A stretch of 64,000 bases of DNA from Comamonadaceae bacterium CD01. GTDB taxonomy: Bacteria; Pseudomonadota; Gammaproteobacteria; Burkholderiales; Burkholderiaceae_C. The notes below the pieces were generated by a model that had not been told where the DNA came from, searched no databases, and saw only the letters and a program-made list of their open reading frames with translations. This document shows, piece by piece, positions 43,687 through 60,929 of the stretch. Every line of letters starts with the position of its first letter. Within the stretch, counting starts at the first letter, position 1. The stretch spans positions 1 through 64,000 of the forward strand of contig PGEI01000001.1 of assembly GCA_002894305.1 (NCBI GenBank), written 5' to 3'. The translations under genes were made by a program, and so were the position numbers.

Positions 43687-43763
43687 CGGCGCGCCCCAGC
43701 GACGCGCGCCGGCAATGGCATGATGGCTTTTCCCATCCCCCCACGGCGCCCCGCCCACACGCC

Positions 43764-44456
43764 ATGACCACCGTGATCTCCGACGAAATCGACCTGCTTG
43801 CCCAGCTTCTGCCCGCCCCCGGCCCACGCGTGATCGAGCTGGGCTGCGGCAGCGCCCGCATGGCGCGCCAGATGCTGCAGCGCTGGCCGGACATGAGCTA
43901 CCTGGGCCTGGAGGTCGATCAGGTGCAGCACGCGCGCAACCTGCAGGACGTGCCGCCGCGCATGCGCTTCGAGGCCGCTGGCGCGCAGGACATTCCGTGT
44001 GCCGATGCGCGGTTCGACCTGGCGCTGATGCTCAAGTCGCTGCACCACGTGCCCGTGGACCTGATGGACAAGGCGCTGGCCGAGGTCGCCCGCGTGCTCG
44101 CGCCCGGCGGCTACCTGTATGTGTCCGAGCCGGTCTACGCCGGCCCGCTCAACGAGGTCGTGCGCCTGTACAACGACGAGGGCGTGGTTCGCGCTGCCGC
44201 GCAGGCGGCGCTCGACCGCGCGCTTGCCGCACCGAACAGCCTCTGGCGCGAGGCGGCGCAGCAGCGCTTTGAAACCCCGGTGAAGTTTGCCGATTTCGAC
44301 GACTTCGCCCAGCGCATGATGTACCCGAGCTTTGCCAACCACCAGATCACGCCCGCGCTGCGCGACCAGGTGGCCGCCGCCTTTGCGCCGCACTGCACGG
44401 CCAGCGGCGCGCACTTTGTGCGGCCCATGCACGTGCGTCTGCTGCAGCGCGCCTGA
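43764..44456 (+). CDS. Class I SAM-dependent methyltransferase
   Basis: The 230-residue protein has a Rossmann-type SAM site with motif I RVIELGCGSARMA, a downstream acidic residue at GLEVDQVQ, motif DARFDLALMLKSLHHVP and motif VLAPGGYLYVSEPV. This is a typical class I (UbiE/Methyltransf_11) fold; the substrate is unknown. It is the only plus-strand gene in the cobalamin region and diverges from cobD. A role in corrinoid methylation cannot be claimed because it lacks the CobA/CysG type fold. Confidence 0.8.
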   Translation: MTTVISDEIDLLAQLLPAPGPRVIELGCGSARMARQMLQRWPDMSYLGLEVDQVQHARNLQDVPPRMRFEAAGAQDIPCADARFDLALMLKSLHHVPVDLMDKALAEVARVLAPGGYLYVSEPVYAGPLNEVVRLYNDEGVVRAAAQAALDRALAAPNSLWREAAQQRFETPVKFADFDDFAQRMMYPSFANHQITPALRDQVAAAFAPHCTASGAHFVRPMHVRLLQRA

Positions 44457-44494: not shown

Positions 44495-45190
44495 TCACGC
44501 CTCGCTCACCAGCCAATCGGCGCCCCGGCCCCAGGTGTCGTCGAACACCACCTGCGCCAGCGGCGCGCGCCGCGCCCAACGCTCGCGCTGCAGCATCGGC
44601 TCCTCGTAGAAGTCGTGCACCGGCCCCAGGCACAGCAGGGCCACGCAGCGCGCACCATGGGGCAATTGCAGCAATCGCCCAACTTCCTCGGGGTCGAAGA
44701 TCGACACCCAGCCCATGCCCAGGCCTTCGGCGCGCGCGGCCAGCCACAGGTTCTGGATCGCGCAGGCGACCGAGGCCAAGTCCATCTCGGGCAGCGTGCG
44801 CCGGCCGAACACATGGGCCTCGCGCCCGTCCATCAGCGCCACGGCCAGCACCTCGGCCGCGTCCATCAGCCCCTCGACCTTCAGGCGCAGAAAGCCGCTG
44901 CGCTGCGCACCCAGCGCGTCGGCCGTGCGCAGGCGTTCGGCCTCGACCAGCGCCTGCAGCTCGCAGCGCAGCGCGCGGCTGCGCACGCGGATGAAACGCC
45001 ACGGCTGCATGAAGCCCACGCTGGGCGCCAGGTGGGCCGCGGTGAGCAGCCGGGTGAGCAGCTCGTCGGGCACCGCGCCGCCGGCAAAGTGGCGCATGTC
45101 GCGCCGCTCGCCGATCACGCGGTACAGCGCCGCGCGCTCGGCCGGGCCGTAGGCGTGCGCGCCCGCAGGGCGCGCCGCGTCAACCGGCAT
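44495..45190 (-). CDS. bluB: 5,6-dimethylbenzimidazole synthase (BluB)
   Basis: The 231-residue nitroreductase-fold enzyme cuts FMN with oxygen to give 5,6-dimethylbenzimidazole, the lower ligand of cobalamin. It has RRDMRHFAGGAVPDELLTRLL, the APSVGFMQPWRFI stretch (with the serine-valine-glycine-phenylalanine motif of BluB), and the GLGMGWVSIFDPE segment. Length is typical. Its start overlaps the end of ogt by 11 bases. It supports complete, oxygen-dependent B12 synthesis in this organism. Confidence 0.94.
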   Translation of the reverse strand: MPVDAARPAGAHAYGPAERAALYRVIGERRDMRHFAGGAVPDELLTRLLTAAHLAPSVGFMQPWRFIRVRSRALRCELQALVEAERLRTADALGAQRSGFLRLKVEGLMDAAEVLAVALMDGREAHVFGRRTLPEMDLASVACAIQNLWLAARAEGLGMGWVSIFDPEEVGRLLQLPHGARCVALLCLGPVHDFYEEPMLQRERWARRAPLAQVVFDDTWGRGADWLVSEA

Positions 45191-45795: not shown

Positions 45796-46494
45796 TCACA
45801 CGCCCTGCGCCGCGTGCAGGTAACGCGCGCCCCAGCGTGCGGCCCAGGCGGCACACTGGCCGGCCGGGCGCAGCGGGTCGTCGAAGTCCACCAGCACCAG
45901 TTGCTGCGCGTGCGCCGGGCGCTGCGGCGCGGCCAACGTGCGCCCGTCGGTCAGCAGCCACAGCCACGCACCCCCCGTGCGGCCGCTGCGCGCGGCCTGT
46001 GCCAGCAGTTGGTCGGCCTGCGCCAGCGCGTTGTCCAGCGGCGTGCCGCCGCCCCCGCCCAACGGGCGCACCCGCACCACGGCGCTGGCGCGTGCCGGCG
46101 CGGGTGGCAGCAGCAGCTGCACGCCCTGGCCACCAAACGACAGCAGGGCCACATGGTCGCCGGCGCGGGCGGCCTGGGCGATCAGCGCGCCCGCCCAGCC
46201 CTTGGCCTGCGCCAGCCGCTCGCCGCGCATCGAGCCCGAGGTGTCGAGCACCAGCAGGTGCAGCGCCGGCACGCGCTGGGGCACTCGGCGCCAGCGCAGA
46301 TGGGGCGCAGCCAGCGGCTGCGGCCCCTTGGCCGTCAGCGTGCGCGGCCAGTCGATCTGCGCGCCTGCCGTCTGGGCGCCGTCGTGCGCCAGCGCCAGGC
46401 CGGGGCGTGGCGGCGCATTGGCCGCGCTGCTGCGCCACCGCCAGCTGGCCTGCGCGCGCGGCGCGGCCGGGCTGCGGTGGCTCAGGCTTTTTTT
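45796..46494 (-). CDS. chlD: VWA domain part of ChlD-like cobalt chelatase subunit, reached by -1 frameshift
   Basis: This frame encodes a von Willebrand A domain (MIDAS motif LVLDTSGSMRGERL, later VRVRPLGGGGGTPLDNAL and a TDGRT loop), the C-terminal part of ChlD/CobT-type subunits. It has no ribosome site or plausible ATG before the domain; the first in-frame GTGs lie in the domain itself. It joins the upstream ChlI-like frame at the A7 run 46488-46494 by a -1 shift. The joint product from 47570 would be about 591 residues, AAA+ domain, proline-rich linker, VWA domain, as in ChlD. The extension is therefore annotated as part of one gene. Confidence 0.85.
   Translation of the reverse strand, partial: KKSLSHRSPAAPRAQASWRWRSSAANAPPRPGLALAHDGAQTAGAQIDWPRTLTAKGPQPLAAPHLRWRRVPQRVPALHLLVLDTSGSMRGERLAQAKGWAGALIAQAARAGDHVALLSFGGQGVQLLLPPAPARASAVVRVRPLGGGGGTPLDNALAQADQLLAQAARSGRTGGAWLWLLTDGRTLAAPQRPAHAQQLVLVDFDDPLRPAGQCAAWAARWGARYLHAAQGV
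46434..46494 (-). promoter_or_regulatory. Programmed -1 ribosomal frameshift signal (A7 slippery run and stem-loop)
   Basis: On the message, the frame-0 codons GCA AAA AAA GCC TGA give the slippery heptamer A-AAA-AAA (46494-46488). Six bases (GCCTGA) separate it from an 8-base GC-only-but-two stem GCCACCGC / GCGGTGGC (46481-46474 with 46441-46434), with extra GGCC pairing in the loop. The frame-0 stop is inside the spacer. The spacing, heptamer and stem match classic -1 signals such as dnaX. The downstream frame carries the VWA domain. Confidence 0.85.
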
Positions 46495-47570
46495 GCGGAG
46501 AGCGCCCCGGTGTTGACCCGCCGCACCTGCGTCTCGGGCTCGGGCGCCAGCGCGCCCCAGTCGCCCTCGGGGCGCGGGCGAAGGTTCTGCGCGGTGGGTG
46601 CATCTGCCGGCGCCTGCGGCGGCCGGGCGGGTGCGGGCGGCTGCGCCTGGGCTTGCTGCGGGGGCTGCGCCTGCCCGCGGCGGTGCGCCAGCGCCAGCTC
46701 GGCCACCGCGTCCACGCTCTCGGGCAGCACTTGGTCGCGCGCCTGCAGCGCCGCCAGCGCACGCGCGGCGCGCAGCATCACCAGGTCGGCGCGCACGCCG
46801 TCGACGCTGGCTTGCTGCGCCAGGTCGGCCGCGCGCGCCAGCACCGCGTCGCTCCAGACGAGCTGCGGCAGGCGGGCGCGGGCGTCGGCAATCTGCTGCG
46901 CCAGTTGCGCCAGTGCCAGCGCGTGCGCGGCGTGCAGCGCCTCGGGCTCGGACTCGAAGCTCAGGCGGGCGCGCACGATGGCCTGGCGCTCGCGCGCGTC
47001 CTGCGGGTTGGCCAGCTGCAGCGACAGGCCGAAGCGGTCGAGCAGTTGCGGGCGCAGCGCGCCCTCCTCGGGGTTCATCGTGCCGATCAGCACGAAGCGC
47101 GCCGCGTGCTGGCGCGAAACGCCGTCGCGCTCGACGGTGTTCACGCCGCTGGCGGCAGCGTCCAGCAGCGCGTCGACCAACGCGTCGGGCAACAGGTTGA
47201 CCTCGTCCACATAGAGCACGCCGCCGTGGGCGCGCGCCAGCAGCCCGGGCGAGAGCACGACGCGCCCGCTTTGCAGCGCGTCCTGCACGCTGAGCGTGCC
47301 GACGAGCTGCTCCAGACTGGCCGCCAGCGGCAGCGTGACGAAGGGCGCGCCCGGCAGCAGCGCCGCCAGCGCCCGCGCCGCGGTGGACTTGGCCGTGCCG
47401 CGCGGGCCGGCGATCAGCACGCCGCCGATGGCTGGGTCGATGGCGGCGAGCAGCAGCGCACGCTGCAGCGCGTCGTGGCCGACGAGGGCGGTGAACGGAA
47501 ACGCTGGCGCCGGCGCGTACAGCTGGGTGGCGGCGGTATCTGCCAGAGAGGAGGCGGTGGATGCGGTCAT
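46482..47570 (-). CDS. chlI: ChlI-like AAA+ chelatase subunit (frame-0 product of chlD)
   Basis: The 362-residue frame-0 product is an AAA+ ATPase of the Mg-chelatase small-subunit type. It has Walker A GPRGTAKST (55-63), Walker B GVLYVDEVNLL near residue 125, the sensor GTMNPEEG and arginine finger region LLDRFGLSL, and the ADLVMLRAARALAAL lid. A proline, alanine and glutamine rich linker precedes the stop, which lies just after the slippery A7 run. The start overlaps cobN by 4 bases. Together with CobN it should form the cobalt chelatase; the VWA partner is made by frameshifting on the same message. Confidence 0.88.
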   Translation of the reverse strand: MTASTASSLADTAATQLYAPAPAFPFTALVGHDALQRALLLAAIDPAIGGVLIAGPRGTAKSTAARALAALLPGAPFVTLPLAASLEQLVGTLSVQDALQSGRVVLSPGLLARAHGGVLYVDEVNLLPDALVDALLDAAASGVNTVERDGVSRQHAARFVLIGTMNPEEGALRPQLLDRFGLSLQLANPQDARERQAIVRARLSFESEPEALHAAHALALAQLAQQIADARARLPQLVWSDAVLARAADLAQQASVDGVRADLVMLRAARALAALQARDQVLPESVDAVAELALAHRRGQAQPPQQAQAQPPAPARPPQAPADAPTAQNLRPRPEGDWGALAPEPETQVRRVNTGALSAKKA

Positions 47571-50500
47571 GCGCTCGGCTCGCTGTCTTCCAGGTGTTGT
47601 TCCAGCGCCAGCAGGTGCTGGCGGATGCGGTCGCGGTGCGCGCCAGGCTCGGCCCACTGCCCGCGGGCCATGGCTTCGAGCAGGCGCTCGGCCACGCTGC
47701 GCAGCGCCTGCGGGTTGTGCTGCCGCAAGAAGGCGCGCGTGTCGTCGTCGTGCAGATAGGCGTCGGCCACCAGCGCGTACTGGTGGTCGGCCACCACATC
47801 GGCGGCGGCGTCGAAGGCGAACAGATAGTCCACCGTGGCGGCGATCTCGAACGCGCCCTTGTAGCCATGGCGCTTGACGCCGTCTATCCACTTGGGGTTG
47901 ACCGCGCGCGAGCGCACCACGCGGGCGACCTCTTCGCTCAGTGGCCGGATGCGCGGCGCGCCGGGCACGCTCAGGTCGCCGTGGTAGAGCGCGGGCAGCG
48001 CGCCGGCCAGGTGCTCGACGGCCGCGGCCATGCCGCCGTGGAACTGGTAGTAGTCGTCCGAATCCAGGATGTCGTGCTCGCGGTTGTCCTGGTTGTGCAA
48101 CACCGCCTGCACGCCCGCCAGGCGCTGGGCAAAGCTGGCCGGCGCGCTCAATCCGGGCGAGTCCTGGCCATAGGCAAAGCTGCCGGCGCGCAGATAGGCC
48201 TGGCCCAGGTCGGCGCGGCCCTGCCAGCGGCCGCTGTTGATCAGCTCCTGCAGCCCCGCGCCGTAGCCGCCCGGGCGTGGGCCGAAGACGCGCCAGCTGG
48301 CCTGGCGCCGCGCCTGCGCGGGCGTCGCGCCCTGGGCCTGGGCGGCGGCCGCGTCGCGCTGCACGCGGGCGCGGATGGGGTTGACCTCGTCGCTCTCGTC
48401 CTCCACCGGGATGGCGGCGACGGCCTGCACCGCGGTGTCGAACAGCGCGATGACGTTGGGAAACGCGTCGCGGAAAAAGCCCGAGACGCGCAGCGTCACG
48501 TCCACACGCGGGCGGTCGGCGATGGCCATCGGCAGCACCTCGACGTCGACCACGCGGTTGCTGCCCGGCGCCCATCGGGGGCGCACGCCGATCAGCGCCA
48601 GCGCCTGGGCGATGTCCTCGCCGCCCGAGCGCATGGTGCTGGTGCCCCACACCGTCAGGCCCACGCTGTCCGGGTAGCTGCCGTGGTCCTGCAGGTGGCG
48701 CTCGATCACGCGCTCGGCGGCCAACCGGCCCATCTCGTAGGCCATGGGCGTGGGCACGGCACGGGTATCGACCGAATAGAAGTTGCGCCCGGTGGGCAGC
48801 GTGTCGGGCCGCCCGCGCGAGGGTGCGCCGCTGGGGCCGGCGGGCACGAAGCGCCCCTGCAGGCCGCGCAGCAGCTGGCGCATTTCGTTGGCGCCACTGG
48901 CGTCCAGCCGCGGGGCAATGCGCTCGCGCAGGTGCTGCAGCACGGGCGCGGCCTGCGGCCAGGCGGCGGCATGGGGCGCCGGTGCGTCGGGCGCGGCGTG
49001 CTCTGCCACCAGGCGCGCGGCCAGCTGCTCCAGGCGCTCGCGCGCGTGGCCGGCGTGGCGCCAGGGCGCATCACTCACCGCCTGCAACAGCGCGGGACGC
49101 GGCCCCTGCCAGGGCGCGGCCCAGTCGGGGGTGAGCGGGTCAAACCCGGACAGTCCCAGGTCTGCGGCCAGCGCGGCCAGCAGCCCGCCCTGCCCCGCGC
49201 CCTGGCCGCTGGCGTGGCGCGCCAGCGCCACCAGCGTGTCGGTGCGCAGCCGCCCGGCGGGGCTCTGGCCCAGCGTGTGCAAGCCGTCGCGGATCTGCGA
49301 CTCCTTGATCTCGCACAGATAGGCGTCGAGCCGCGCCAGCAGCGCCTCGCGCGCGGCGTCGGTGGCGGGCGCGTCAAAGCCCAGCTCCTGGTGCAGGCCG
49401 GCGGCCACCACCTGTTCGAGCATCACGGCGCGCAGGCGCTGGGCGCGACGCGGGTCGAGCTGCAGCGCGTCGTAGTACTCGTCCATGCTGCGCTCCAGCG
49501 CCTGCAGCGGGCCGTAGCTCTCGGCGCGGGTCAGCGCCGGCATCAGGTGGTCGATGATCACCGCCTGCGTGCGCCGCTTGGCCTGGCTGCCCTCGCCCGG
49601 GTCGTTGACGATGAAGGGGTACAGGTGGGGCAGCGGCCCGAGGATGGCGTCGGGCCAGCAGTCGGCGCCCAGCGCCACGCTCTTGCCCGGCAGCCATTCC
49701 AGGTTGCCGTGCTTGCCCACGTGCACCACCGCATCGACCGCGAACGCGCGGCGCAGCCAGAAGTAGAACGCCAGGTAGCCGTGGGGCGGCACCAGGTCGG
49801 CGTCGTGGTAGCGGGTGGCGAGGTCCGCGTCGCGCCCGCGCGCGGGCTGGATGCCGATGAACACTTTGCCCAGCCGCAGGCCCGAGACCATGAAGCGCCC
49901 GGCGCGCAGCATCGGGTCCTGCTCGGGCCGGCCCCACAGCTCGTTGATCGCCTGGCGGCTCTCAGGCGCCAGCCACTCGAAGTCGGCCAGGTAGTCGGCC
50001 AGCGCCAGGCTCTGGAAGGCCGGGCGGTGGGCATTGGCGTCCAGCGCGTTGGTCACGCCCTGCACCAGGCGGCGCATCAGCGCGTCGCCGTCCTCGGGCA
50101 ACGGATCGGCGCCCAGGTCGTAGCCCTCGGCCTGCAGCGCGTGCAGGAGGGCCATGGTCGAGGCTGGCGTGTCCAGCCCCACGCCGTTGGCCAGGCGCGC
50201 GTCGTCGTGCGGGTAGTTGGCCAGGATCAGCGCGATGCGCTTGTTCGGCGCGGGCAGGCGGCGCAGCGCGCACCAGTTGCGCGCCAGCCGGGCGACGAAG
50301 CCGATGCGCTCGGGCTCGGGCTGGTAGCGCACCACGTCCACCTCGGTGCGCTCGCAGCGGTGCGCCAGGCCCTTGAAGCTGACCGCGCGCGTGGTGATGC
50401 GCCCGTCCACCTCGGGCAGCACGACGTGCATCGCCAGGTCGCGCGGGCTCAATCCGTGGGGGTCGTCCTGCCACTGCTCGCGCGTGCCACCGGCCATGAT

Positions 50501-51370
50501 GAGCTGCAGCACCGGCGCGTCGCCGGCCAGCAGCACCGGCTCGGGCGGCGCGTCGCCGCTGGCGTCCAGCGAGACGATGGCGAAGCTGGTGGCGTTGAGC
50601 ACCAGGTCCACGCCCTGCTCGGCCGCCAGCGCCTGCACAGCGGCCAGCGTCGAGGGAGTCTTGAGCGAATCGATGGCCAGCGCCTGCGCGCGCAGGCCCT
50701 GCGCCGCCAGCGCGGCCAGCAGCGCGTCGAACACCGCGGTGTTGCCCGACTGCGCATGCGCCCGGTAGAACAACAGCAGCGCCAGCGGCGCATCAGGCGC
50801 GACCGGCGGGCAGGCCGGGCCCGCATAGGGCAGCACCGCCGGCAGCGCCCGCGGCGGCGGCGGGCGCTGGCCACGGCCGAAGGCGGCGTGGGCGATCAGC
50901 GCGTAAAAGCCCAGCGCGTTGCCCCGCCCGCCGGCGCGCAGCGCGCGCCACAGCTGGTCGCAGTCGGCCGGCGCGGCGGTGCTGCGCAGCAGGAGCTGCC
51001 CGTCGGGCTGGTTGTCGCCCGAGAACAGCGCCAGCCACTGGCCCTGCCTGCGCGCCAGCGCCTGCACCTGCTCGACGACGTAGGCCCAGTCGCTGGTCGC
51101 GCCCAGGTGGTCGATGACGATGGCGCGCGCATGAACCAGCACGTCGTCGATGTACATGTCGGTCGACGCCGGCTGGCGCAGCCACATCAGGTTGGCCAGG
51201 CGCACGCTGGGAAAATCTGCGGGCAGTTGCTGAGCGGCGTCCGAGAGCAGCGACAGCGTCGTGTCGGCGGCGCTCAGGATGACGATGTCGCCCGGCGTCT
51301 GCACCACGCGCACCACGCCCTGGCCGCCGTCGTCCACATAGCCGCCGGGGCGCGTCGAGAGCAGGTGCAT
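47567..51370 (-). CDS. cobN: Cobaltochelatase large subunit CobN
   Basis: The 1267-residue protein is the large, substrate-binding subunit that inserts cobalt into hydrogenobyrinic acid a,c-diamide with the help of AAA+ subunits. Family signatures include FNVVHVGKHGNLEWLPGK-like VVHVGKHGNLEWLPGK, NYPHDDARLANGVGLDTPAS, and the C-terminal DYYQFHGGMAAAVEHLAG and WIDGVKRHGYKGAFE. Start ATG 51370 fits MHLLSTRPGGY; it follows cobW by one base. The stop overlaps the ChlI-like start (ATGA). Presence of CobN but no CobS/CobT gene implies the ChlI/ChlD-type partners. Confidence 0.96.
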   Translation of the reverse strand: MHLLSTRPGGYVDDGGQGVVRVVQTPGDIVILSAADTTLSLLSDAAQQLPADFPSVRLANLMWLRQPASTDMYIDDVLVHARAIVIDHLGATSDWAYVVEQVQALARRQGQWLALFSGDNQPDGQLLLRSTAAPADCDQLWRALRAGGRGNALGFYALIAHAAFGRGQRPPPPRALPAVLPYAGPACPPVAPDAPLALLLFYRAHAQSGNTAVFDALLAALAAQGLRAQALAIDSLKTPSTLAAVQALAAEQGVDLVLNATSFAIVSLDASGDAPPEPVLLAGDAPVLQLIMAGGTREQWQDDPHGLSPRDLAMHVVLPEVDGRITTRAVSFKGLAHRCERTEVDVVRYQPEPERIGFVARLARNWCALRRLPAPNKRIALILANYPHDDARLANGVGLDTPASTMALLHALQAEGYDLGADPLPEDGDALMRRLVQGVTNALDANAHRPAFQSLALADYLADFEWLAPESRQAINELWGRPEQDPMLRAGRFMVSGLRLGKVFIGIQPARGRDADLATRYHDADLVPPHGYLAFYFWLRRAFAVDAVVHVGKHGNLEWLPGKSVALGADCWPDAILGPLPHLYPFIVNDPGEGSQAKRRTQAVIIDHLMPALTRAESYGPLQALERSMDEYYDALQLDPRRAQRLRAVMLEQVVAAGLHQELGFDAPATDAAREALLARLDAYLCEIKESQIRDGLHTLGQSPAGRLRTDTLVALARHASGQGAGQGGLLAALAADLGLSGFDPLTPDWAAPWQGPRPALLQAVSDAPWRHAGHARERLEQLAARLVAEHAAPDAPAPHAAAWPQAAPVLQHLRERIAPRLDASGANEMRQLLRGLQGRFVPAGPSGAPSRGRPDTLPTGRNFYSVDTRAVPTPMAYEMGRLAAERVIERHLQDHGSYPDSVGLTVWGTSTMRSGGEDIAQALALIGVRPRWAPGSNRVVDVEVLPMAIADRPRVDVTLRVSGFFRDAFPNVIALFDTAVQAVAAIPVEDESDEVNPIRARVQRDAAAAQAQGATPAQARRQASWRVFGPRPGGYGAGLQELINSGRWQGRADLGQAYLRAGSFAYGQDSPGLSAPASFAQRLAGVQAVLHNQDNREHDILDSDDYYQFHGGMAAAVEHLAGALPALYHGDLSVPGAPRIRPLSEEVARVVRSRAVNPKWIDGVKRHGYKGAFEIAATVDYLFAFDAAADVVADHQYALVADAYLHDDDTRAFLRQHNPQALRSVAERLLEAMARGQWAEPGAHRDRIRQHLLALEQHLEDSEPSA

Positions 51371-51371
51371 A

Positions 51372-52421
51372 TCAGGCGTCCAGCGCCGCCTGCAGCTCCT
51401 GCTGCAGCGCCGGGCCGTCCAGGTGGTCGCCAATCAGCACCAGGCGCGAGGCGCGCTCCTCGCCCGGCAGCCAGCGGCGGTCGAACTGGCTGTCGAAGCG
51501 CTGGCCCACGCCCTGCACCACCAGGCGCATGGCCGCGCCCGGCAGCGCGACGAAGCCCTTGGCGCGGTAAATCTCGTGGCGCTGCACCAGCGCGGCGAGC
51601 GCGGCGATCAGCCGGTCGCGGTCGGCGACGGCCAGCGTGACGGCGACCGAGTCGAAGGCGTCGTGGTCGTGGTCTTCCTCCGCGTCGTGGTGGGTCTTGC
51701 GCGCGTCGATCACGTCCTCGACCGCGCGGCCCAGGCCCAGCACCAGCTCGGGCACGACCTGCCCGTGGTGGGCGTGCACCAGCTGCACGCCGGCGGGCGT
51801 CTCGGCGCGCACCAGCGCCTCGACGCGGGCGACGTCGGCCGCGTCCATGCCTTCGAGCTTGTTGAGCACCACCAGGTCGGCGGTGGCCAGCTGATCCTCG
51901 AACAGCTCGGCCAGCGGCGATTCGTGGTCCAGGTTGTCGTCGGCGCGGCGCTGCGCGTCCACCGCCTGCGGGTCGTCGGCAAAGCGGCCGGCGGCCGCCG
52001 CCGGCGCGTCGACCACGGTGACCACTGCATCGACGGTGAAGGCGTTGCGGATCTGCGGCCACTGGAAGGCCTGCACCAGCGGCTTGGGCAGCGCCAGGCC
52101 CGAGGTCTCGATCACCAGGTGGTCGATCTGCCCACGGCGCGCGGCCAGCTGCTCCATCACCGGCGCGAATTCCTCCTGCACCGTGCAGCACAGGCAGCCG
52201 TTGGCCAGCTCGAACAGCTGGCCGTTGTCCTCGCCCGATTCGTCGCAGCCGATGCCGCAGCCGCGCAGCAGCTCGCCGTCGATGCCCAGCGCGCCGAACT
52301 CGTTGACGATGACCGCGATGCGCCGGCCCTGGGACTGCGTCAGCAGGTGGCGCAGCAGCGTGGTTTTGCCGGCGCCCAGAAAGCCGGTGACGATGGTGGC
52401 GGGGATTTTGTTCAGTTGCAT
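51372..52421 (-). CDS. cobW: Cobalamin biosynthesis GTPase CobW
   Basis: This 349-residue G3E-family GTPase probably delivers cobalt to the chelatase. Motifs are Walker A GFLGAGKTT (13-21), the metal-binding CLCC (GCLCCTVQEE), the guanine specificity NKLE and a histidine/aspartate-rich linker HHDAEEDHDHDAFD suited to metal binding. The C-terminal domain is CobW_C like. It precedes cobN by one base, so the two are translated together. Distinguished from zinc GTPases mainly by its setting in the cob cluster. Confidence 0.95.
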   Translation of the reverse strand: MQLNKIPATIVTGFLGAGKTTLLRHLLTQSQGRRIAVIVNEFGALGIDGELLRGCGIGCDESGEDNGQLFELANGCLCCTVQEEFAPVMEQLAARRGQIDHLVIETSGLALPKPLVQAFQWPQIRNAFTVDAVVTVVDAPAAAAGRFADDPQAVDAQRRADDNLDHESPLAELFEDQLATADLVVLNKLEGMDAADVARVEALVRAETPAGVQLVHAHHGQVVPELVLGLGRAVEDVIDARKTHHDAEEDHDHDAFDSVAVTLAVADRDRLIAALAALVQRHEIYRAKGFVALPGAAMRLVVQGVGQRFDSQFDRRWLPGEERASRLVLIGDHLDGPALQQELQAALDA

Positions 52422-52464
52422 CGGTGTTCCTTCAGTGAATCGCGCAGCGGCGCTGCGCAGTGGT

Positions 52465-53298
52465 TCAGGGCAGCGCGCGCAGGCAGTCGACCAGCATCTG
52501 CGCCGCCTCGCCCAGGCGCGGGCCGGGGCGCTCCAGCAGTGCCATGCGCTCGGCGTCGAGCGCGCAGACCCGGCCGCCCTGCACCGCGGGCAGCTGCGCC
52601 CAGCCGGGGCGCTGCGCCAGGTTGGAGAGCATGGCGGCCGGGCCGACGATCAGCTCGGGCCTGCGGCGCACGATCCACTCGGGGTTGATCTTGGGAAACA
52701 GCCCCAGATCGCCGCCGACGATGTTGACCAGCCCCAGGCGGGTCAGCGTCTCGCCGATGAAGGTGGCGCTGCTCGCCGCCTTCGGCCCCAGGCCGATCTC
52801 GACGTAGACGCTGCGCCCGCGCAGGCGAGCGGGCAGGCGCGCGGCGGCGGCGTCCAGCTCGCGCTCTATCTTTGCGATCAGCGCCTCGGCACGCGCGGGC
52901 TCGCCCAGCGTGCGGCCCAGCGCGCGCAGCATGGCCTGCTGGTCGGCATGGGTGCGCACCACAAAGGTCTGCACCGGTATGCCCAGCTCGGCCAGCCGCT
53001 CGTCGAGGCGCGAGCGCGGGCCCAGCAGCACCAGGTCGGGGTGCAGCGCGGCAATGCGCTCGATCGACGCGTCGGCCATGCCGCCGATCTTGGGCAGGTT
53101 GGCGACCGGGCCGGGGCCGGTGGAATAGCGGTCGGTGCCGACGATGCGGTCGCAGTAGCCCAGCGCGCACACCGCGTCGGTCAACGACGGCGAGACGGTG
53201 ACAATGCGCTGCTGCGCCTGCGCCGGGCCGGCCGCAAGACAGCCCAGCAGCGCCAGCAGCGGCAGCGGGCGCTGCGCCCGCTCGGGAGCCGCCAGCAT
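52465..53298 (-). CDS. Cobalamin-type ABC transporter substrate-binding protein (second BtuF-like copy)
   Basis: The 277-residue periplasmic protein of the BtuF/FepB family has a signal peptide (cleavage near PAQAQ, about residue 29), the SPSLTDAVCALGYCDRIVGTD start, then PKIGGMADASIERIAAL and PEWIVRRRPELIVG. It is paralogous to the BtuF gene at 55771-56688. Only one btuC and one btuD are present, so both binding proteins may share the transporter, or this one may bind another corrinoid. Its start overlaps the disrupted cobO stop by one base (TGATG). Confidence 0.85.
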   Translation of the reverse strand: MLAAPERAQRPLPLLALLGCLAAGPAQAQQRIVTVSPSLTDAVCALGYCDRIVGTDRYSTGPGPVANLPKIGGMADASIERIAALHPDLVLLGPRSRLDERLAELGIPVQTFVVRTHADQQAMLRALGRTLGEPARAEALIAKIERELDAAAARLPARLRGRSVYVEIGLGPKAASSATFIGETLTRLGLVNIVGGDLGLFPKINPEWIVRRRPELIVGPAAMLSNLAQRPGWAQLPAVQGGRVCALDAERMALLERPGPRLGEAAQMLVDCLRALP

Positions 53299-53812
53299 CA
53301 GTCTTCGATTCCGCGCTGCGCGGGCACGCCGGCCTTGAAGTGGTGCTTGATCAGCGTCATCTCGGTGACGGTGTCGGCCAGGTCGATCAACTCCTGCGGC
53401 GCGCCGCGGCCGGTCAACACCACGTGCACATGGCCGGGGCGCTCGCGCAGGCAGGCCAGCACGTCGGCCAGTTGCAGCCAGCCGTAGCGCAGCGGGTACA
53501 TGATTTCGTCGAGCACCACCATGAACAGCTCGCCGCCGCGGATGCTGGCCTCGGCCTTGGCCCAGCCGTCGCGCGCCAGTTGCGCCGAATGCTCCAGGTC
53601 GCGGCTCTTCCAGGAAAAGCCATCGCCCAGCCCTTCGATGGGCACGCCCAGCTGCTCGAACAGGCGGTGCTCGCCAAAGCGCGCCGACGGCACCTTCATG
53701 AGGCGGCCGTGCTTTTGCCCTTGCCGTTGCCGGTGTGCACCAGCACCAGGCCGCGGCGCTCGCCCTGGGGTTTGGGGGTGTCGCGGTGAATGGGAGGGGC
53801 TTCGATTTCCAT
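53298..53812 (-). pseudogene. cobO: Corrinoid adenosyltransferase CobO, disrupted by an internal deletion and frameshift
   Basis: From ATG 53812 the frame reads a normal CobO start with the P-loop HTGNGKGKSTAA (residues 26-37), then ends at TGA 53696-53698 one residue later. A second frame continues at once with MKVPSARFGEHRLFEQLG, and the rest of CobO down to 53298. In intact CobO proteins about 19 residues lie between the P-loop and MKVP; here they are gone and the frame has moved. About 55 bases appear deleted. The rest of the protein is well preserved, so the loss is recent, or the region is mis-assembled. Confidence 0.82.
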
Positions 53813-53870
53813 GTCTCTTTCCTTTACGGGAGCCAGGCGCCACTGCGGGCGCGGGTTGAAATTGCATCGG

Positions 53871-54674
53871 TCAGCACGGCAGCGCCACCCACTGGCCGGC
53901 CAGCGAGTGCACGGCCACGCGGCGGTCGAACACCTGCTCGACCGCGCGGTGGGTGCGCTCGTCGGCGCAGCCGCCGTGGTGCACCACCTGGCCGGCGCGC
54001 ATCACCACCAATTCGTCGGCGGCCAGCGCCATGCCCACCTCATGCAGCACGCTGACCACGGTGCAGCCGCGCGCCACCTCATTGCGCACCAGCGCCAGCC
54101 AGTCGGCCTGGTGCGGCGGATCCAGATTGGCCAGCGGCTCGTCCATCAGCAGCACGCGCGCCTGCACCGCCAGCACGCGCGCCAGCAACACGCGCTGGCG
54201 CTCGCCGCCCGACAGCTGCGCCAGCGGCCGATCGCGCCAGTCCCAGGCCTGGGTGGCGCGCAACGCCTGCTCGACGGCGGCGTGGTCGGCGGCGCTGGCC
54301 GGCTGCATCCAGCGCTGGTGCGGCAGCCGCCCAAGCATCGCCACGTCGTAGACGCGCAGGTCGTCGGCCGTGGCCTCGTTCTGGCCCAGCCAGGCCAGCG
54401 CCAGCGCGCGCTCGCGCCGGCCCCAGGCGCGCAGCTCGCGCCCCAGCAGCAGCACCTGGCCGCTGGCAGGCGCCAGCAGCCCGGCCAGCACCTTGAGCAG
54501 CGTGGACTTGCCCGCGCCGTTGGGGCCGACGATGGAGGTCCAGCGGCCCTCGGCCAGCGCCAGGTCCACGCTCTGCAAAATGGGGCGCGCGCCATAGGCC
54601 ACGCCCACGCGGCGCGCGACCAGCGCGGCGTCGTGGCTGGTTTTGTGCTCGGCCTGCATCGGCTCGGCGCTCAC
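53871..54674 (-). CDS. btuD: Cobalamin ABC transporter ATP-binding protein BtuD
   Basis: This 267-residue FecE/BtuD-type ATPase has Walker A GPNGAGKST, signature LSGGERQRV and Walker B VLLMDEPLANLDP, with the switch histidine in VLHEVGMAL. It powers uptake through BtuC. The GTG at 54674 is chosen because GGGAGG lies 8 bases upstream and the codon overlaps the btuC stop (GTGA); the alternative is ATG 54659. The gene precedes cobO by 58 bases. Confidence 0.9.
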   Translation of the reverse strand: MSAEPMQAEHKTSHDAALVARRVGVAYGARPILQSVDLALAEGRWTSIVGPNGAGKSTLLKVLAGLLAPASGQVLLLGRELRAWGRRERALALAWLGQNEATADDLRVYDVAMLGRLPHQRWMQPASAADHAAVEQALRATQAWDWRDRPLAQLSGGERQRVLLARVLAVQARVLLMDEPLANLDPPHQADWLALVRNEVARGCTVVSVLHEVGMALAADELVVMRAGQVVHHGGCADERTHRAVEQVFDRRVAVHSLAGQWVALPC

Positions 54675-55774
54675 AGCACGCCTCCCGCGCCGGTGCGCCG
54701 GTGCATCAGCCACAGCAGGTAGCCGCCGCCGAGCACCGCGGTCAGCACGCCCACCGGCAGCTCCTGCGGCGCCAGCAGCCCGCGCGCCAGCAGGTCGGCG
54801 CCGGCCAGCAGCGCCGCGCCCATCAGGCTGGCCAGCCACATCAGCCGGCCATGGGTGACATGCACCGCCGCGCGCACCAAATGGGGCGCGGCCAGGCCGA
54901 CGAAGGCGATCAGCCCGGTCTGCGCCACCGCGGTGCCGGTGGCCAGCGCCAGCACCGCCACCAGCGCCGCGCGCAGCGGCGCCAGACGCAGGCCCAGGCT
55001 GAGCGCGGTCGATTCGCCCAGCGCCAGCGCGTCCAGCGTGCGCGACAATGCCCAGGCCGCGGCCAGGCTGGGCAGCCACACGGCCAGCATCAGCAGGCAC
55101 GAGGTCCAGCCGACGAAGCCCGTCGAACCCAGCAGAAAACCCTGCATGGCCTGCAGCGAATCGGGCGACAGCAGCAGGATGAGCGAAGTGCACGCGCCCA
55201 GCACCACGCCGACGACCACGCCCGCCAGCAGCAGGCGCAGCGTGTGCTGCACGCCGCGCGCCAGCGCCAGCGTCAGCAGCACCGCGGCCACCGCGCCGAC
55301 GAAGGCCGCGCCCGTGAGCCCCAGGCGCACCAGCCAGTGGCCCGAATACACCGAGACCACGGCCACGCTGGTGGATGCGCCCAGCATGCTGCCGGCGCCG
55401 CCCATCAGCGCCAGCACCGCGGCCACGCCCAGCGACGCGCCCGAGGCGCTGCCCAGCAGATAGGGGTCGGCCAGCGGGTTGCGAAACAGCCCCTGCGCCA
55501 CCGCGCCGGCCAGGCCCAGCAGCGCGCCGGCGGCCCAGGCGCCCAGCGTGCGCGGCAGGCGGATGTCCCAGACGATCTGGCGCGCCATGGCGGCCTGCGC
55601 ACCCTCGCCCGACCACAGCGGGCGCAGGCTCTCCACGCCGGTGCTGCCCACGGCAAGGCCCGCCAGCAGCAGCGCCGCGCCCAGCGCCAGCAGCACCAGC
55701 GTGAGCCAGTGCCCGGCGCTGCGCGGCACGGCCGGCGCGCGCACGCGGCTCAAGGGGCGAACCGATGTGTTCAC
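54671..55774 (-). CDS. btuC: Cobalamin ABC transporter permease BtuC (FecCD family)
   Basis: The 367-residue FecCD-family permease has about ten membrane helices, the conserved IRLPRTLGAWAAGALLGLAGAVAQGLFRNPLADPYLLG-type segment (RLPRTLGAWAAG and FRNPLADPYLLG visible), and FVGLAAPHLVR with HGRLM near the cytoplasmic ATPase contact. It starts with a 4-base overlap with btuF and ends overlapping btuD. Vitamin B12 is the probable substrate, from the riboswitch and btuB context; iron siderophores cannot be excluded on sequence alone. Confidence 0.9.
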   Translation of the reverse strand: MNTSVRPLSRVRAPAVPRSAGHWLTLVLLALGAALLLAGLAVGSTGVESLRPLWSGEGAQAAMARQIVWDIRLPRTLGAWAAGALLGLAGAVAQGLFRNPLADPYLLGSASGASLGVAAVLALMGGAGSMLGASTSVAVVSVYSGHWLVRLGLTGAAFVGAVAAVLLTLALARGVQHTLRLLLAGVVVGVVLGACTSLILLLSPDSLQAMQGFLLGSTGFVGWTSCLLMLAVWLPSLAAAWALSRTLDALALGESTALSLGLRLAPLRAALVAVLALATGTAVAQTGLIAFVGLAAPHLVRAAVHVTHGRLMWLASLMGAALLAGADLLARGLLAPQELPVGVLTAVLGGGYLLWLMHRRTGAGGVL

Positions 55775-56688
55775 CGCGCCGCCCCCTGCCCGGCCGCCGC
55801 GCCGGCGTTGCGGCGCAGGCAGTCGGCCATCAGCCGCGCGCCCTCGTCCATGCGCGGGCCGGGACGGATCAGCATGTCCGACTCCTGCGCATTGAACACG
55901 CAGACATGGCCCTGGCGCAGCGCGCGCATCGCGCTCCAGCCCGGGCGCGCCAGCAATCCGTCGGCACTGCGCGCGCCGACCATGACCACGTCGGGGTCGG
56001 CGCGCACGACGAACTCGGGGTTGATCTTGGGGAACGGCCCCAGTGACGCCGGCAGCACGTTGCGCGCGCCCAGGCGCGCCAGCGTCTGGCCGATGAACGA
56101 CGCCTCGCCCGCGCCGAACGGCCCGGGGCTGACCTCGAAATACACGCGCAGGCCGCGCGCCTGGGGCGGCAGCGAGCGCGCCTGCGCATCAACCGCGGCG
56201 TCGATGCGCTGCCAGACCTGCTGCGCACCGTCGACGCCCAGCAACTGCCCCAGCTTGGTGATGACGCGCTGCACGTCGGCATGGGTCTTGGGCTCCAGCG
56301 CCGCCACCGGCACGCCCAGCGCGCGCAGGCGCTCGGCCGCGCGCGAGGAGGCGCTCATCAGCACCAGGTCCGGGCGCAACGCCACGACCATCTCGATGTT
56401 CGGATCCAGCCCACCGCCCACCTGCGGCAGCTGCTGCACGCTGGCGGGCCAGTTGGTGTAGCGGTCCACGCCCACCAGCCGGCCGCACGCGCCCAGCGCG
56501 CACACCGTCTCGGCCAGCGAGGGCAGCAGGCTGACGATGCGCTGCGGCGGCTGCGCCAGCACGACCGTCTGGCCGCGGTCGTCGACCACCTGCACCGGCT
56601 GCGCCTGCGCCGCGCCGAACATCAGCAGCAACAGGGCCAGCAGCACGGCAACGACGATCAGGATGCGCTTGGGCGGCGTGGGCTTCAT
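55771..56688 (-). CDS. btuF: Cobalamin ABC transporter substrate-binding protein BtuF
   Basis: This 305-residue periplasmic binding protein has a hydrophobic N-terminal anchor or signal ([22 protein letters not shown], cleavage near residue 29), [21 protein letters not shown], then [10 protein letters not shown] and [16 protein letters not shown]. The tryptophan in the WP motif fits BtuF. Its start overlaps the end of cobU and its stop overlaps btuC (4 bases each), placing it in the middle of the B12 operon. A paralog lies at 52465-53298. Confidence 0.88.
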
Positions 56689-57314
56689 GGCGCTTCGTCC
56701 TTCAGGGCCAGCGGCAGGCCGGCGGCCATCAGCGTCACCCGCGTGCAGGCCGCCGCCACCTGCTGGTTGAGCCGGCCGAGCGCGTCGACAAAGGCGCGCA
56801 CCTCGCGCCCGAGCGGAATCACGCCCAGGCCGATCTCGTTGCCCACCAGCACGACCGGGCCGGGGGCTTGCTGCAAGACCTTCAAAAACAGAGCTGCCTG
56901 TGCCGGCCAGTCCTGAGCCTCATCGGTACTTGCTCCTTCCCCCTTTGGGGGAAGGTTGGGATGGGGGCCGCCCCCCGGCGCCACCGGCATCAACCAGTTC
57001 GTCAGCCACAGCGTCAGGCAATCGACCACCACCAGCGCCTGCGGGCTGCCCACGCGCGCCAGCGCCCCCGCCAGATCGCGCGGCTCCTCCAGCGTCAGCA
57101 TGCCGGGCACGCGCTCGGCGCGGTCGCGCTGGTGGCGCGCGATGCGCTCGGCCATCTCTTCGTCCCAGGCCTGGCCGGTGGCGATGAGCACCGCGCGGTG
57201 CGTCGGCGACTGCGCCAGCCACTGGCGCGCCAGCAGCTCGGCGCGGCGCGACTTGCCGCTTTTCTGCCCGCCCAGGATCAGCTCGCTGCGCGCGATGGAC
57301 AGGTCTGCAGTCAT
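56685..57314 (-). CDS. cobU: Adenosylcobinamide kinase / adenosylcobinamide-phosphate guanylyltransferase (with in-frame repeat insertion)
   Basis: The 209-residue bifunctional enzyme activates the nucleotide-loop precursor in B12 assembly. It has the P-loop GGQKSGKSR (15-23), LIATGQAWDEEMAERI, and VVVDCLTLWLTNWL, then VLVGNEIGLGVIP. The family norm is about 180-190 residues. The extra stretch at about 112-130 (GGGPHPNLPPKGEG) is encoded by a palindromic repeat and lies between conserved segments, in a likely surface loop. The start overlaps cobB by 4 bases. Conserved catalytic parts are intact, so activity is plausible. Confidence 0.92.
   Translation of the reverse strand: MTADLSIARSELILGGQKSGKSRRAELLARQWLAQSPTHRAVLIATGQAWDEEMAERIARHQRDRAERVPGMLTLEEPRDLAGALARVGSPQALVVVDCLTLWLTNWLMPVAPGGGPHPNLPPKGEGASTDEAQDWPAQAALFLKVLQQAPGPVVLVGNEIGLGVIPLGREVRAFVDALGRLNQQVAAACTRVTLMAAGLPLALKDEAP
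56935..56955. repeat. Palindromic repeat element inside cobU
   Basis: A 21-base perfect dyad, CCTTCCCCC-TTT-GGGGGAAGG, is followed by G-rich and C-rich runs (to about 56980). In the cobU frame it reads NLPPKGEG, a peptide well known from REP-like elements translated within genes. The element is a sign of repeat insertion into a coding sequence without breaking the frame. Confidence 0.75.
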
Positions 57315-58654
57315 GGCGCCTCCGCGGTGAACAGCGCCGCCGTGGCCTCGGGGCTGGAGGCAAACCAGGCGTGAAAGAAGCTGGCGCGCACGCTGCCCTG
57401 CCGGTACAGCGCCTCGCCCGCGCCCGGCGCCGGCATCTGCCCCGGCCGCGCGCTGCGCGTGGCCACGGGCGCGGCGCTGTCCAGCGTCGCGTAATGAAAG
57501 GTATGGCCACGCAGCACGCCCGCATCCAGCGCCAGCTGCTGCGGCCCCAGCCCCGCCAGGCGCTGCTGCAGCACGGCCCGCCCGGGCAGCAGGCCCCACA
57601 GCGGCTGCACGTGGCCGTCCGGCAGCGCGATCGACTCGGCCAGCGCCAGCATGCCGCCACACTCGGCCCACACCGGCCGGCCTGCGTCAACATGCACGCG
57701 CAGGTCCTGCTGCAACGTGGCGTTGGCGGCAATCTGCGCGGCGTGCAGCTCCGGATAGCCGCCAGGCAGCCACAGCGCATCGCACGCCGGCAGGCGGTCG
57801 CCGGCCAGCGGCGAGAAGAACACCACGCGGGCGCCCAGCCGCTCCAGGGTCTGGATGTTGGCCGGGTAGATGAAGGCAAAGGCCGCGTCGCGCGCCACCG
57901 CCACGGTGCGCCCGGCCAGTAGCGGCGGTACGACGGCCGGCGGCTGCGGCGCGAAATCGACCGCAAAGCACTGCAGCGCCGCCGCGTCCATCCGGCCCAG
58001 CGGCGTGGCGGCCAGCGCGTCGGCGGCGGCGTCCAGGCGCTCCAGCGCATCGGGCAGCTCGTGCGCCGCGACCAGGCCCAGGTGCCGCTCGGGCAGCAGC
58101 GGCCCGCCGCCCTCGCCCGCCAATCGAGGCAATGCGCCCAGCCAGTCGGCGCCATCCTTCAGGCCATCGCGCAACATCTGAGCGTGGCGTTCACCGGCCA
58201 CACGGTTGGCCAGCACGCCGGCCCAGGGCAGGCCGGCGCGGTAGGTCTTGAGGCCATGGACGATGGCACCCAGCGTGCCGCCCATGGCTTGTGCATCGAC
58301 CACGGCGAGCACCGGCATGCCGAAATACTCTGCCAAATCGGCCACGCTGTCCGCGCCGTCGAACAGGCCCATCACGCCCTCGACCAGGATCAGGTCGGCC
58401 TCGCGCGCCGCAGCATGCAGGCGCGCAGCGCAGTCCTCGGGGCCGGTCATCCACAGGTCGAGCTGCTCGACCGGCGCGCCGCTGGCCAGTTGGTGCCAGT
58501 GCGGGTCGAGGTAGTCCGGCCCGCACTTGAACACCCGCACGCGCCGCCCCTGCCGCGCGTGCAGGCGCGCCAGCGCGGCGGTGACGGTGGTCTTGCCCTG
58601 GCCGGAGGCACAGGCGGCAATCACCAGGGCGGGGCAGCGGGCTGAGATGGTCAT
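57311..58654 (-). CDS. cobB: Cobyrinate / hydrogenobyrinate a,c-diamide synthase
   Basis: The 447-residue enzyme amidates the a and c side chains of the corrin ring using glutamine. The N-terminal ATPase half has CASGQGKTTV (15-24), FKCGPDYLDPHWH, and GVMGLFDGAD. The C-terminal glutamine amidotransferase half has ALWLPGGYPELHA and the nucleophile CGGM (WAECGGMLAL). Length is normal. It lies 18 bases after btuB on the same strand and overlaps cobU by 4 bases, so it shares the riboswitch-controlled transcript. Confidence 0.95.
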   Translation of the reverse strand: MTISARCPALVIAACASGQGKTTVTAALARLHARQGRRVRVFKCGPDYLDPHWHQLASGAPVEQLDLWMTGPEDCAARLHAAAREADLILVEGVMGLFDGADSVADLAEYFGMPVLAVVDAQAMGGTLGAIVHGLKTYRAGLPWAGVLANRVAGERHAQMLRDGLKDGADWLGALPRLAGEGGGPLLPERHLGLVAAHELPDALERLDAAADALAATPLGRMDAAALQCFAVDFAPQPPAVVPPLLAGRTVAVARDAAFAFIYPANIQTLERLGARVVFFSPLAGDRLPACDALWLPGGYPELHAAQIAANATLQQDLRVHVDAGRPVWAECGGMLALAESIALPDGHVQPLWGLLPGRAVLQQRLAGLGPQQLALDAGVLRGHTFHYATLDSAAPVATRSARPGQMPAPGAGEALYRQGSVRASFFHAWFASSPEATAALFTAEAP

Positions 58655-58672: not shown

Positions 58673-60535
58673 TCAGTACTGCGGCGCCCATTTCAGGCCG
58701 ACGTAGAAGGTGCGGCCTGCGGTGGCGTAGTCCTTGGCCAGCACGTAGTCGCGGTCATTCAGGTTGTCCACGCGCGCCACCAGCTGCCAATCGCGCGCGA
58801 GGCGGGTGGAGGCACTCAGGTTGAGCATCCCATAACCCCCAAGCACCGTCGTATTCGCCGGGTTGTCATAGCGACGGCTGGCCAATTGCCACTCGCCACC
58901 CAGATTCCACCCTGCGAGGGCCGTTTCGGCGCCCAACGTGGCATAGCGCTTGGAACGGCGCGCCAGCAGCTTGCCCGTGTCACGGTCGCGGGGGTTTTGC
59001 CAGTCGATCGAGCCGTGCAGCAGAACCTGGCCCAGTTTGGTCGCTCCGGCCAGGGTTACGCCCTCCAGTTGCGCCTTGCCTACGTTGGCATAGCAACCCG
59101 GGTACATGCCAGCACTCCCCCCCGGGCACGGCCCCGGCCCCGAAACATAATTGATCAGGTTGCTGACCCTGTTGCGGTAGGCCGTCAACGACACGCCATG
59201 AACACCGTCCTGCCAGTGCAATCCCAGTTCTGCATTGCGGCTGGTCTCGGGTTGCAGCGTGGCATCGCCGTAGTCGCTGAAACGCTGATACAGCGTAGGC
59301 GCCCGGAACGCAGTGCCCACCGAGGCCGTGGCGCGCCAGTTCTTGACGAACTCATAGCCATAGGCGGCACTGCCCGTGGTCTTGCCGCCAAATTCACTGT
59401 CGCGATCATGCCGTGCATTGAGCTGCAGCGTATGGGCGCCGGTACGCAGGCCATAGCCCAGCGCCAGCGCGTTTTGCGCACGTTGACGATCATGGTCGAT
59501 CGATGTGCTCTCCAGGTGGTCTTCTCGCCGCTCCAATGTCGCGCTCAACTGGTGAATGCCGAAGTGCCAGTCGTTCTGGAAGAGGTAGCCGCGCAGGCGG
59601 GTCTCGGTCAAATAGGGCGAGGGCCGGGTTTCATAGCGGTCGCGCGACTCGGAAACAGACAGGCGGGTGCTGTAGTGCTCCGTCCAGCGCGCCTGCCAGT
59701 TCAAGCCCAGCGCCTGGGTGCGCCGCAGGTTGCGGTCATCGGCGGCGCTGGTGTCATAGCCACTGTTGGTGTCGTTGTACAGCAACGAGCCTTCCAGCCG
59801 GTGCGCGTCGTCGATTTGAAAGCCAAGGCGGCCGTTGGCGGCGGTGCTGCGGTAGCCGTCACGGTCGGGGTTGTGGCCAGCGTTGGTCTTGCTGTCAAAG
59901 CCCTTGCTGGTCTCGCGCGCCACGCCAAGCGCGTAGTCCCACGCGCCCGTGGCGCCGCTCACGCCCGCCTCGCCGCGCCAAGTGCCGTGCGATCCCGCGC
60001 CAACACCCACATAGGGCGCCATGCCGGCCTCGCCCTTCTTGGTAAAGATCTGAACGACACCGGCAATCGAATCCGAGCCATACACCGCTGCGGCGGGGCC
60101 ACGCAGCACTTCGATTCGATCGACCATCGACAGCGGCAAAGCCTCCCAGCTCGCACCACCGCTGCCGGCCTGGGAATCCATGCGAATGCCGTCGACGTAC
60201 ACGGCGGTGTAGTTGGTGGACGCGCCGCGCAGGTACAGGCTGGAGCTGGTGCCTGGCCCGCCATTGCGCACGAACTGCACACCCGGCAACCGCGCCAGCA
60301 CGTCCACCAGGCCGGTGGCACCGCTGCGTTCTATGGTTTCACGGTCGACGATGGACACGTCGGCCACGACGTCGGTCAAAGGTTGCGCGATGCGCGTGGC
60401 GGTCACCACGGTCTCCTGCAACTGGCTGGCGGGCGTGAGCAGCGCCACCTGGGTCTGCGCCTGGACTGCCACGGCAGCGCACAGCGCCAAAGGCAGGGCG
60501 GCCATGCGCATCGGAATGGAACGAGAAATCGACAT
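58673..60535 (-). CDS. btuB: TonB-dependent vitamin B12 receptor BtuB
   Basis: The 620-residue outer-membrane receptor has a signal peptide (cleavage near VQAQT), a TonB box region QLQETVVTA about residue 40, a plug domain (GATGLVDVLARLPGVQF, IEVLRGPAAAVYGSDSIAGVVQIFT) and a 22-strand barrel ending with an aromatic C-terminal residue (KWAPQY). The start ATG 60535 is preferred; the longer frame to 60694 overlaps the riboswitch. The leader carries a cobalamin riboswitch, which confirms the ligand. First gene of the operon. Confidence 0.95.
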   Translation of the reverse strand: MSISRSIPMRMAALPLALCAAVAVQAQTQVALLTPASQLQETVVTATRIAQPLTDVVADVSIVDRETIERSGATGLVDVLARLPGVQFVRNGGPGTSSSLYLRGASTNYTAVYVDGIRMDSQAGSGGASWEALPLSMVDRIEVLRGPAAAVYGSDSIAGVVQIFTKKGEAGMAPYVGVGAGSHGTWRGEAGVSGATGAWDYALGVARETSKGFDSKTNAGHNPDRDGYRSTAANGRLGFQIDDAHRLEGSLLYNDTNSGYDTSAADDRNLRRTQALGLNWQARWTEHYSTRLSVSESRDRYETRPSPYLTETRLRGYLFQNDWHFGIHQLSATLERREDHLESTSIDHDRQRAQNALALGYGLRTGAHTLQLNARHDRDSEFGGKTTGSAAYGYEFVKNWRATASVGTAFRAPTLYQRFSDYGDATLQPETSRNAELGLHWQDGVHGVSLTAYRNRVSNLINYVSGPGPCPGGSAGMYPGCYANVGKAQLEGVTLAGATKLGQVLLHGSIDWQNPRDRDTGKLLARRSKRYATLGAETALAGWNLGGEWQLASRRYDNPANTTVLGGYGMLNLSASTRLARDWQLVARVDNLNDRDYVLAKDYATAGRTFYVGLKWAPQY

Positions 60536-60637
60536 GGGAAATAAATAAGAATCGTCGCCACCACCGACCTCCCCGTCGGCATCTGGGCACCACGGCCTCG
60601 TCGCGCTTGCAGACAGGCGCGTCAAAACCACCGTGTT

Positions 60638-60830
60638 GGCCGGTATCCGGGCTGGCGAAACGCCCTGGCAGCGCCTTCCCAAGCACTTGTTCAAGGCGCT
60701 CAGTGGCTGTGTTGCTGGAGGGTGGACCGGTGCGATCCGTTCGCTGACCGTTGCGGGGGCAGCGCAGGCTCGGCGCCACCGTGGCGGTGGCTACCTCCCT
60801 GCTTCCCGTTGAACTGCGGCGTGTGAACCA
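60638..60830 (-). ncRNA. Cobalamin riboswitch in the btuB leader
   Basis: Reading the minus strand, the conserved elements occur in the correct order: AACGGGAA, then GCTGCCCCCGCAAC, GCCACTG, GGGAAGGCG and the B12 box GCCAGCCCGGATACCGGCC (60656-60638). The 5' limit is approximate. It ends about 100 bases before the btuB ATG and should repress expression when adenosylcobalamin or related B12 is bound. A TAGAAT hexamer at 60855-60860 (minus strand) could be the -10 element of the promoter; no clear -35 was found. Confidence 0.92.
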
Positions 60831-60893
60831 CGACCGCGAGCACCAACGCCGGCGATTCTATCGCTGTCTGGCGCGCCACTTCCTTGGAGCGCA

Positions 60894-60920
60894 TTGACAA
60901 TCTCGGCACGCTCTTACAAT
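60894..60920 (+). promoter_or_regulatory. Promoter of the zapB-like/zapA genes
   Basis: TTGACA (60894-60899) and TACAAT (60915-60920) are spaced by 15 bases, shorter than the usual 17. Transcription would start near 60927, only three bases before the ATG at 60930, so the message is nearly leaderless and lacks a Shine-Dalgarno sequence. Confidence 0.65.
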
Positions 60921-60929
60921 ACCGGCCCT

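Follow-up and report, generated by a model that had tools for sequence, protein, structure and literature searches.

A cobO gene carrying a 55-base deletion just past its P-loop codons, and a PduO-type adenosyltransferase gene, in a draft genome of a Comamonadaceae bacterium

We have found that, in the assembly of Comamonadaceae bacterium CD01, cobO is broken by an internal deletion when compared with the 86 loci of relatives that we examined, as had been proposed in an earlier reading of the same DNA (here called the first-pass annotation). The window, i.e. the whole stretch of DNA analysed, comprises positions 1 to 64,000 of contig PGEI01000001.1 (assembly GCA_002894305.1). With moderate confidence we regard this cobO as a recent pseudogene produced by a 55-base deletion, with no functional CobO being made and with an intact PduO-type enzyme encoded on another contig (C201) taking over adenosylation. 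The most likely explanation is an ordinary one: a gene that the organism can do without lost its function through a recent deletion.

The cobO locus is read on the minus strand. Its 5′ frame begins with the ATG at 53812, which has a ribosome-binding-like stretch, AAAGGAAAGAGAC, on its 5′ side; the frame reads MEIEAPPIHRDTPKPQGERRGLVLVHTGNGKGKSTAAS, encodes the P-loop GNGKGKST and ends at the TGA at 53698-53696. A second frame starts at the ATG at 53699 with MKVPSARFGEHR and continues for 133 aa to the stop at 53300-53298; the TGA of the 5′ frame and this ATG share bases as ATGA. Both pieces match the profile PF02572 (model positions in Table 1), the 5′ piece with E 4.4e-5 and 24.2 bits, slightly below the cut-off of 25.7 bits, and the 3′ piece with 138.9 bits, above it. 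These frames and matches confirm what the first-pass annotation had said of the locus: that the frame from 53812 carries the P-loop and stops at 53696, and that the family segment resumes in another frame. The P-loop and the remaining CobO domain do not lie in one continuous frame, as the P-loop frame ends at 53696. A nominal ORF of 189 aa starting at 53867 includes the 3′ part; its initial 56 codons are the P-loop region read in the wrong frame.

In the relatives, the P-loop (counted from its first G) and the M of the MKVP motif are 29 residues apart in 80 of 86 loci and 33 in the other six, which are copies from the same genus with a four-residue insert (the count omits the window's own loci, L001 and L002; the 80 represent the best of 315 confirmed places). 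The segment lost from the window cobO is kept in all 86 loci. One of these, L010, belongs to a Comamonadaceae metagenome-assembled genome and is 93% identical to the window cobO in the C-terminal part. In comparison with L010 exactly 55 bases are gone, with two equivalent placements of the gap, that is, one base of microhomology. Since 55 bases make 18 codons and one base, the earlier estimate of some 19 lost residues and a shifted frame holds. Chance or misreading of the locus can be discarded, because each piece matches the family and the length lost is always the same in comparison with the 80 loci that share the usual spacing. Programmed frameshifting was rejected as well, because the bases are absent altogether rather than merely out of frame. 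A deletion between repeats was also considered and rejected, the microhomology at the junction being just one base.

In a predicted structure of the intact L010 CobO, the absent residues (36-54 in L010 numbering) cover helix 32-44 in 9 of its 13 residues and strand 49-53 in full; this model has a mean pLDDT of 70 with a low-confidence C-terminus, and was used for the secondary structure near the P-loop alone. Judged by it, the window cobO lacks most of the helix and all of the strand that follow the P-loop in CobO. A search by sequence identified 4hut and 1g5r/1g5t/1g64 as solved relatives. The window gene thus resembles the CobO/CobA/BtuR-type ATP:corrinoid adenosyltransferases (PF02572, TIGR00708) in the family matches of both pieces, in its close identity to an intact relative over the C-terminal part and in its B12 operon setting, and differs from them in lacking 55 bases past the P-loop, with a broken frame and no continuous domain. 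The proposed course of events is that the deletion, falling just past the P-loop codons, would remove the greater part of the first helix, together with the next strand, from the nucleotide-binding core; with the frame shifted, no functional CobO would be produced. The corrinoid uptake and salvage neighbours that were checked, downstream of a cobalamin riboswitch, are still open, and the PduO-type enzyme on C201 would take over adenosylation of imported corrinoids.

The riboswitch (RF00174) is matched over its full length, positions 1-189 of 189, with 71.3 bits against a gathering threshold of 31.5. It is followed by a one-strand run btuB-cobB-cobU-btuF-btuC-btuD-cobO-btuF-cobW-cobN-ChlI-like subunit, then by an ogt-like gene and bluB, and later by cbiB and cobC (Table 1). 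The btuB-like ORF as listed enters the riboswitch, and its true start is probably later; the true start of cbiB is probably also later than listed. The genes flanking cobO had been described as tightly packed and overlapping. This is true on the downstream side, where the next gene overlaps the cobO stop (TGATG), and does not apply upstream, where some 60 bases separate the end of the preceding gene from the start of cobO. L010 shares the order btuD-cobO-btuF-cobW-cobN, with a btuD-cobO gap about 0.75 kb longer.

Table 1. Features of the cobO locus and the surrounding B12 genes (positions in the window)
Feature	Positions	Strand	Evidence
cobO 5′ remnant, 38 codons with P-loop GNGKGKST, then TGA	53696..53812	-	PF02572 positions 2-19
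Deletion junction, 55 bases fewer than L010, two equivalent placements	53700..53702	-	alignment to L010
cobO 3′ part, 133 aa from ATG 53699, ATGA overlap	53298..53699	-	PF02572 positions 40-171, E 2.6e-40
Second BtuF-like periplasmic binding protein, start overlaps cobO stop	52465..53298	-	
cobW	51372..52421	-	PF02492 and PF07683
cobN-type chelatase large subunit	47567..51376	-	TIGR02257 1547.6 bits, cut-off 822.05
ChlI-like chelatase ATPase subunit	46482..47597	-	PF07728, PF17863, PF01078; TIGR02442 385.1 bits, below cut-off 779.45 (longer model)
BtuD-like ABC transporter ATPase, directly upstream of cobO	53871..54671	-	
BtuC-like permease (FecCD)	54671..55774	-	
First BtuF-like binding protein	55771..56688	-	
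cobU/cobP, adenosylcobinamide kinase/guanylyltransferase	56685..57323	-	PF02283 E 9.1e-46; NCBIfam 159.5 against cut-off 161
cobB/cbiA-type amidase	57311..58654	-	PF07685 and PF01656
btuB-like TonB receptor, ORF as listed	58673..60694	-	above Pfam cut-offs, below NCBIfam cut-off
Cobalamin riboswitch preceding the gene run	60621..60862	-	RF00174
bluB, 5,6-dimethylbenzimidazole synthase	44495..45190	-	TIGR02476 248.4 bits, cut-off 150
cbiB, ORF as listed	42673..43827	-	
cobC/cobD-type aminotransferase	41644..42666	-	PF00155; below NCBIfam cut-offs

The genome assembly (3.76 Mb in 212 contigs, completeness 99.96, estimated contamination 4.97%) was searched for an intact second cobO, and none was found. 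The PF02572 profile detected a single locus, in two pieces, among the 212 contigs. A 201-base stretch of intact L010 DNA matched the cobO locus and two short places (26 and 35 bases), partly inside the missing stretch, at which tblastn with the intact L010 CobO gave a chance-level match or none. The first-pass annotation had named a PduO- or EutT-type enzyme as the alternative; a PduO-type gene (PF01923) is indeed present on contig C201 as an ORF of 208 aa, with one match covering positions 1-170 of 171 (E 1.7e-54) and no internal stop. It is the sole adenosyltransferase candidate found in the genome. PduO-type ATP:corrinoid adenosyltransferases carry out the same reaction as CobO, and the gene on C201 is intact; they form a separate protein family, however, the gene lies away from the cobO locus, and it is proposed here as a backup only. 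That it shares a cell with cobO depends on the assembly or the binning, as the two are on different contigs; a PduO-type gene is, however, present in all genus members that were searched.

Methylmalonyl-CoA mutase needs adenosylcobalamin. The gene for this enzyme (PF01642) was found in all nine genomes of the genus, that of the window included; therefore, the organism probably needs adenosylcobalamin. PF01923 was likewise found in every genus member searched (nine of nine, one PduO each), and PF02572 in seven of the nine with the broken window copy counted. The two genus members with no CobO match (G001 and G003) nevertheless keep btuB-btuF-btuC-btuD; their 14-kb stretches gave no match to the window cobB, cobU, cobO or cbiB, and both contain a cobQ-like match. 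Absence of CobO is common in the family as a whole: PF02572 is matched in 243 of 399 genomes and unmatched in 156. All 21 family genomes with broken or unmatched CobO that were tested contain PF01923 (two with broken CobO, G024 and G048, plus 19 from among the 156 that lack a PF02572 match). In Acinetobacter baumannii, which does not synthesize the corrin ring, the PduO-type enzyme is described as functional, and as needed for cobinamide salvage in a complementation test in Salmonella, in the passages of PMC9426561 that bear on it. For the organism studied here we infer three things: a genuine deletion, an inactive cobO remnant, and a PduO that acts on both cobinamide and cobalamin.

If so, this is one more redundant cofactor gene broken while an unrelated enzyme can cover its step, and the strain would be a natural test of PduO alone supporting corrinoid adenosylation. 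The locus also calls for caution in annotation-based pathway prediction: the C-terminal part alone exceeds the PF02572 cut-off, and therefore this genome would be counted among those that have CobO. A narrow literature search for work joining cobO, frameshift and Comamonadaceae found none.

The main rival to a recent loss-of-function deletion is an error of assembly or consensus, in which the cobO of the organism is intact and the draft has dropped 55 bases by a wrong join. We consider this possible, though rather unlikely. In its favour are the number of contigs and the estimated contamination of the draft, the one-base microhomology, with which repeat slippage does not explain the deletion, and the state of the remaining cobO, which bears no sign of relaxed selection. 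Over the 133-codon part, window and L010 differ with pN 0.041 and pS 0.295 (uncorrected; ratio 0.14); against five outgroups pN/pS is 0.19-0.23 for the window and 0.18-0.25 for L010. At nine amino-acid differences between the two, the outgroup majority residue (eight outgroup rows, chosen by hand) is in the window at four and in L010 at two, with three ties or neither. The end branch is 0.019 for the window cobO and 0.067 for L010. We thus see no sign of decay in the sequence of the C-terminal part since the break, and therefore the break is either recent or an assembly error. The conservation of this part, which is like that of intact genes and without a second lesion, counts against reading the locus as a recent pseudogene, because an assembly error would give the same.

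Evidence against an assembly error comes from a frame control, in which ORFs of two genus members (G002 and G005) were compared with part of the window. Among 29 ORFs matching at >50% identity, six had a second frame nearby: cobO twice (once per genome), 60751-61151 twice, the btuB ORF once, at its 5′ end, and a shadow frame once. That end of btuB lies in the riboswitch, as does the first part of 60751-61151; apart from cobO, no genuine gene in this part of the window was divided between frames. The control speaks weakly against a generally error-ridden assembly.

Broken cobO copies occur elsewhere in the family. The best E-value was weaker than 1e-50 in five of the 243 PF02572-positive genomes (the window's genome, G024, G048, G097 and G136), and in three of the 243 cobO is internally broken, each time differently; the count of three comes from the E-value screen, which lesions leaving a high-scoring match would escape. 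In the G024 copy (L118/L137, contig C75) an in-frame loss has taken out the whole P-loop region and left an open frame of 144 aa in a similar operon; the sequence is consistent with a loss between the two GGCGAGC copies seen in the intact copy L009. The G048 copy (L117/L138, contig C348) has a small frameshift just past MKVP. Both resemble the window cobO in that the break falls across the P-loop region or just past it and their genomes contain an intact PduO match; they differ from it in the lesion itself, an in-frame loss in G024 and a small frameshift past MKVP in G048. Of the other two genomes, G097 has its cobO split over two contig ends and G136 has a diverged, open copy.

A frameshifted cobO is also carried by plasmids of Methylibium sp. 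T29; on plasmid pT29A (L102, 5832-6402) it adjoins cobW-cobN and is unannotated in the PLSDB table. As that project is reported as Ion Torrent sequencing in the relevant passage of PMC4517660, a one-base sequencing error is plausible there, and this broken copy can be counted on the side of a technical origin for the window's deletion.

It is very unlikely that the C-terminal protein, having no P-loop, is kept for another role without ATP binding, e.g. corrinoid binding. The 133-aa ORF is conserved, and the in-frame loss in G024 leaves an open protein in a similar operon. Still, only two such cases were seen among 243 PF02572-positive genomes, they are of different origin, and recency of the break explains the conservation equally well. 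Equally improbable is the wider proposal that a P-loop-less CobO is a recurring retained form in the family, the 133-aa and 144-aa proteins having given up ATP binding and serving as corrinoid-binding partners of PduO or of the uptake system. Least credible of all is a split working CobO, in which the P-loop peptide and the 133-aa part would be made by coupled translation at the ATGA and then assemble: both ORFs are open and overlapping and the second is conserved, but most of a core helix and a core strand is gone altogether with the intervening residues, the arrangement is seen at no locus among the 86 from relatives, the other broken copies that were read, those of G024 and G048, differ from it, and the ATGA overlap arises from any such deletion ending beside ATGAAG in this frame.

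As for the lineage of the broken gene, the window cobO groups with L010 (98/94) in a tree and stands apart from the six genus copies, which form a clade without it (100/100); the tree has 33 rows, the window and 32 of the 86 relatives chosen by hand, and its bootstrap values had not settled. A contig foreign to the genome was considered and rejected, because the dnaE gene of this contig shares 79-85% identity, over the long matches, with that of the eight other genus members and so fits the genus, though cobO groups outside the genus copies. Because cobO lies outside the genus clade although dnaE fits the genus, horizontal transfer from another lineage may have brought in the cobO-btuF-cobW-cobN stretch (within 46482-53699) in place of the genus copy. 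In G002 and G005, the operon stretches of 20 kb gave no match to cobW or cobN.

Complete cobinamide salvage is putative in this organism: cobQ, cobT and cobS gave no match within the window, and matches to them are found near the operon in G002 and G005. PF00590 has four matches in the whole genome, and two or three in other genus members. De novo corrin synthesis appears unlikely, because there are only four such matches, counted as a class; the salvage reading rests on this count. Two different BtuF-like proteins flank one btuCD pair in the window, and in G002 and G005 the operon stretches show a single BtuF-like place.

The CobN-type chelatase, the ChlI-like subunit and CobW (46482-51376) are kept despite the presence of only four PF00590 methyltransferase matches; a genome that keeps a CobN-type chelatase is here probably one without corrin ring synthesis. 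Just downstream of these genes, a putative von Willebrand-type frame was read by eye.
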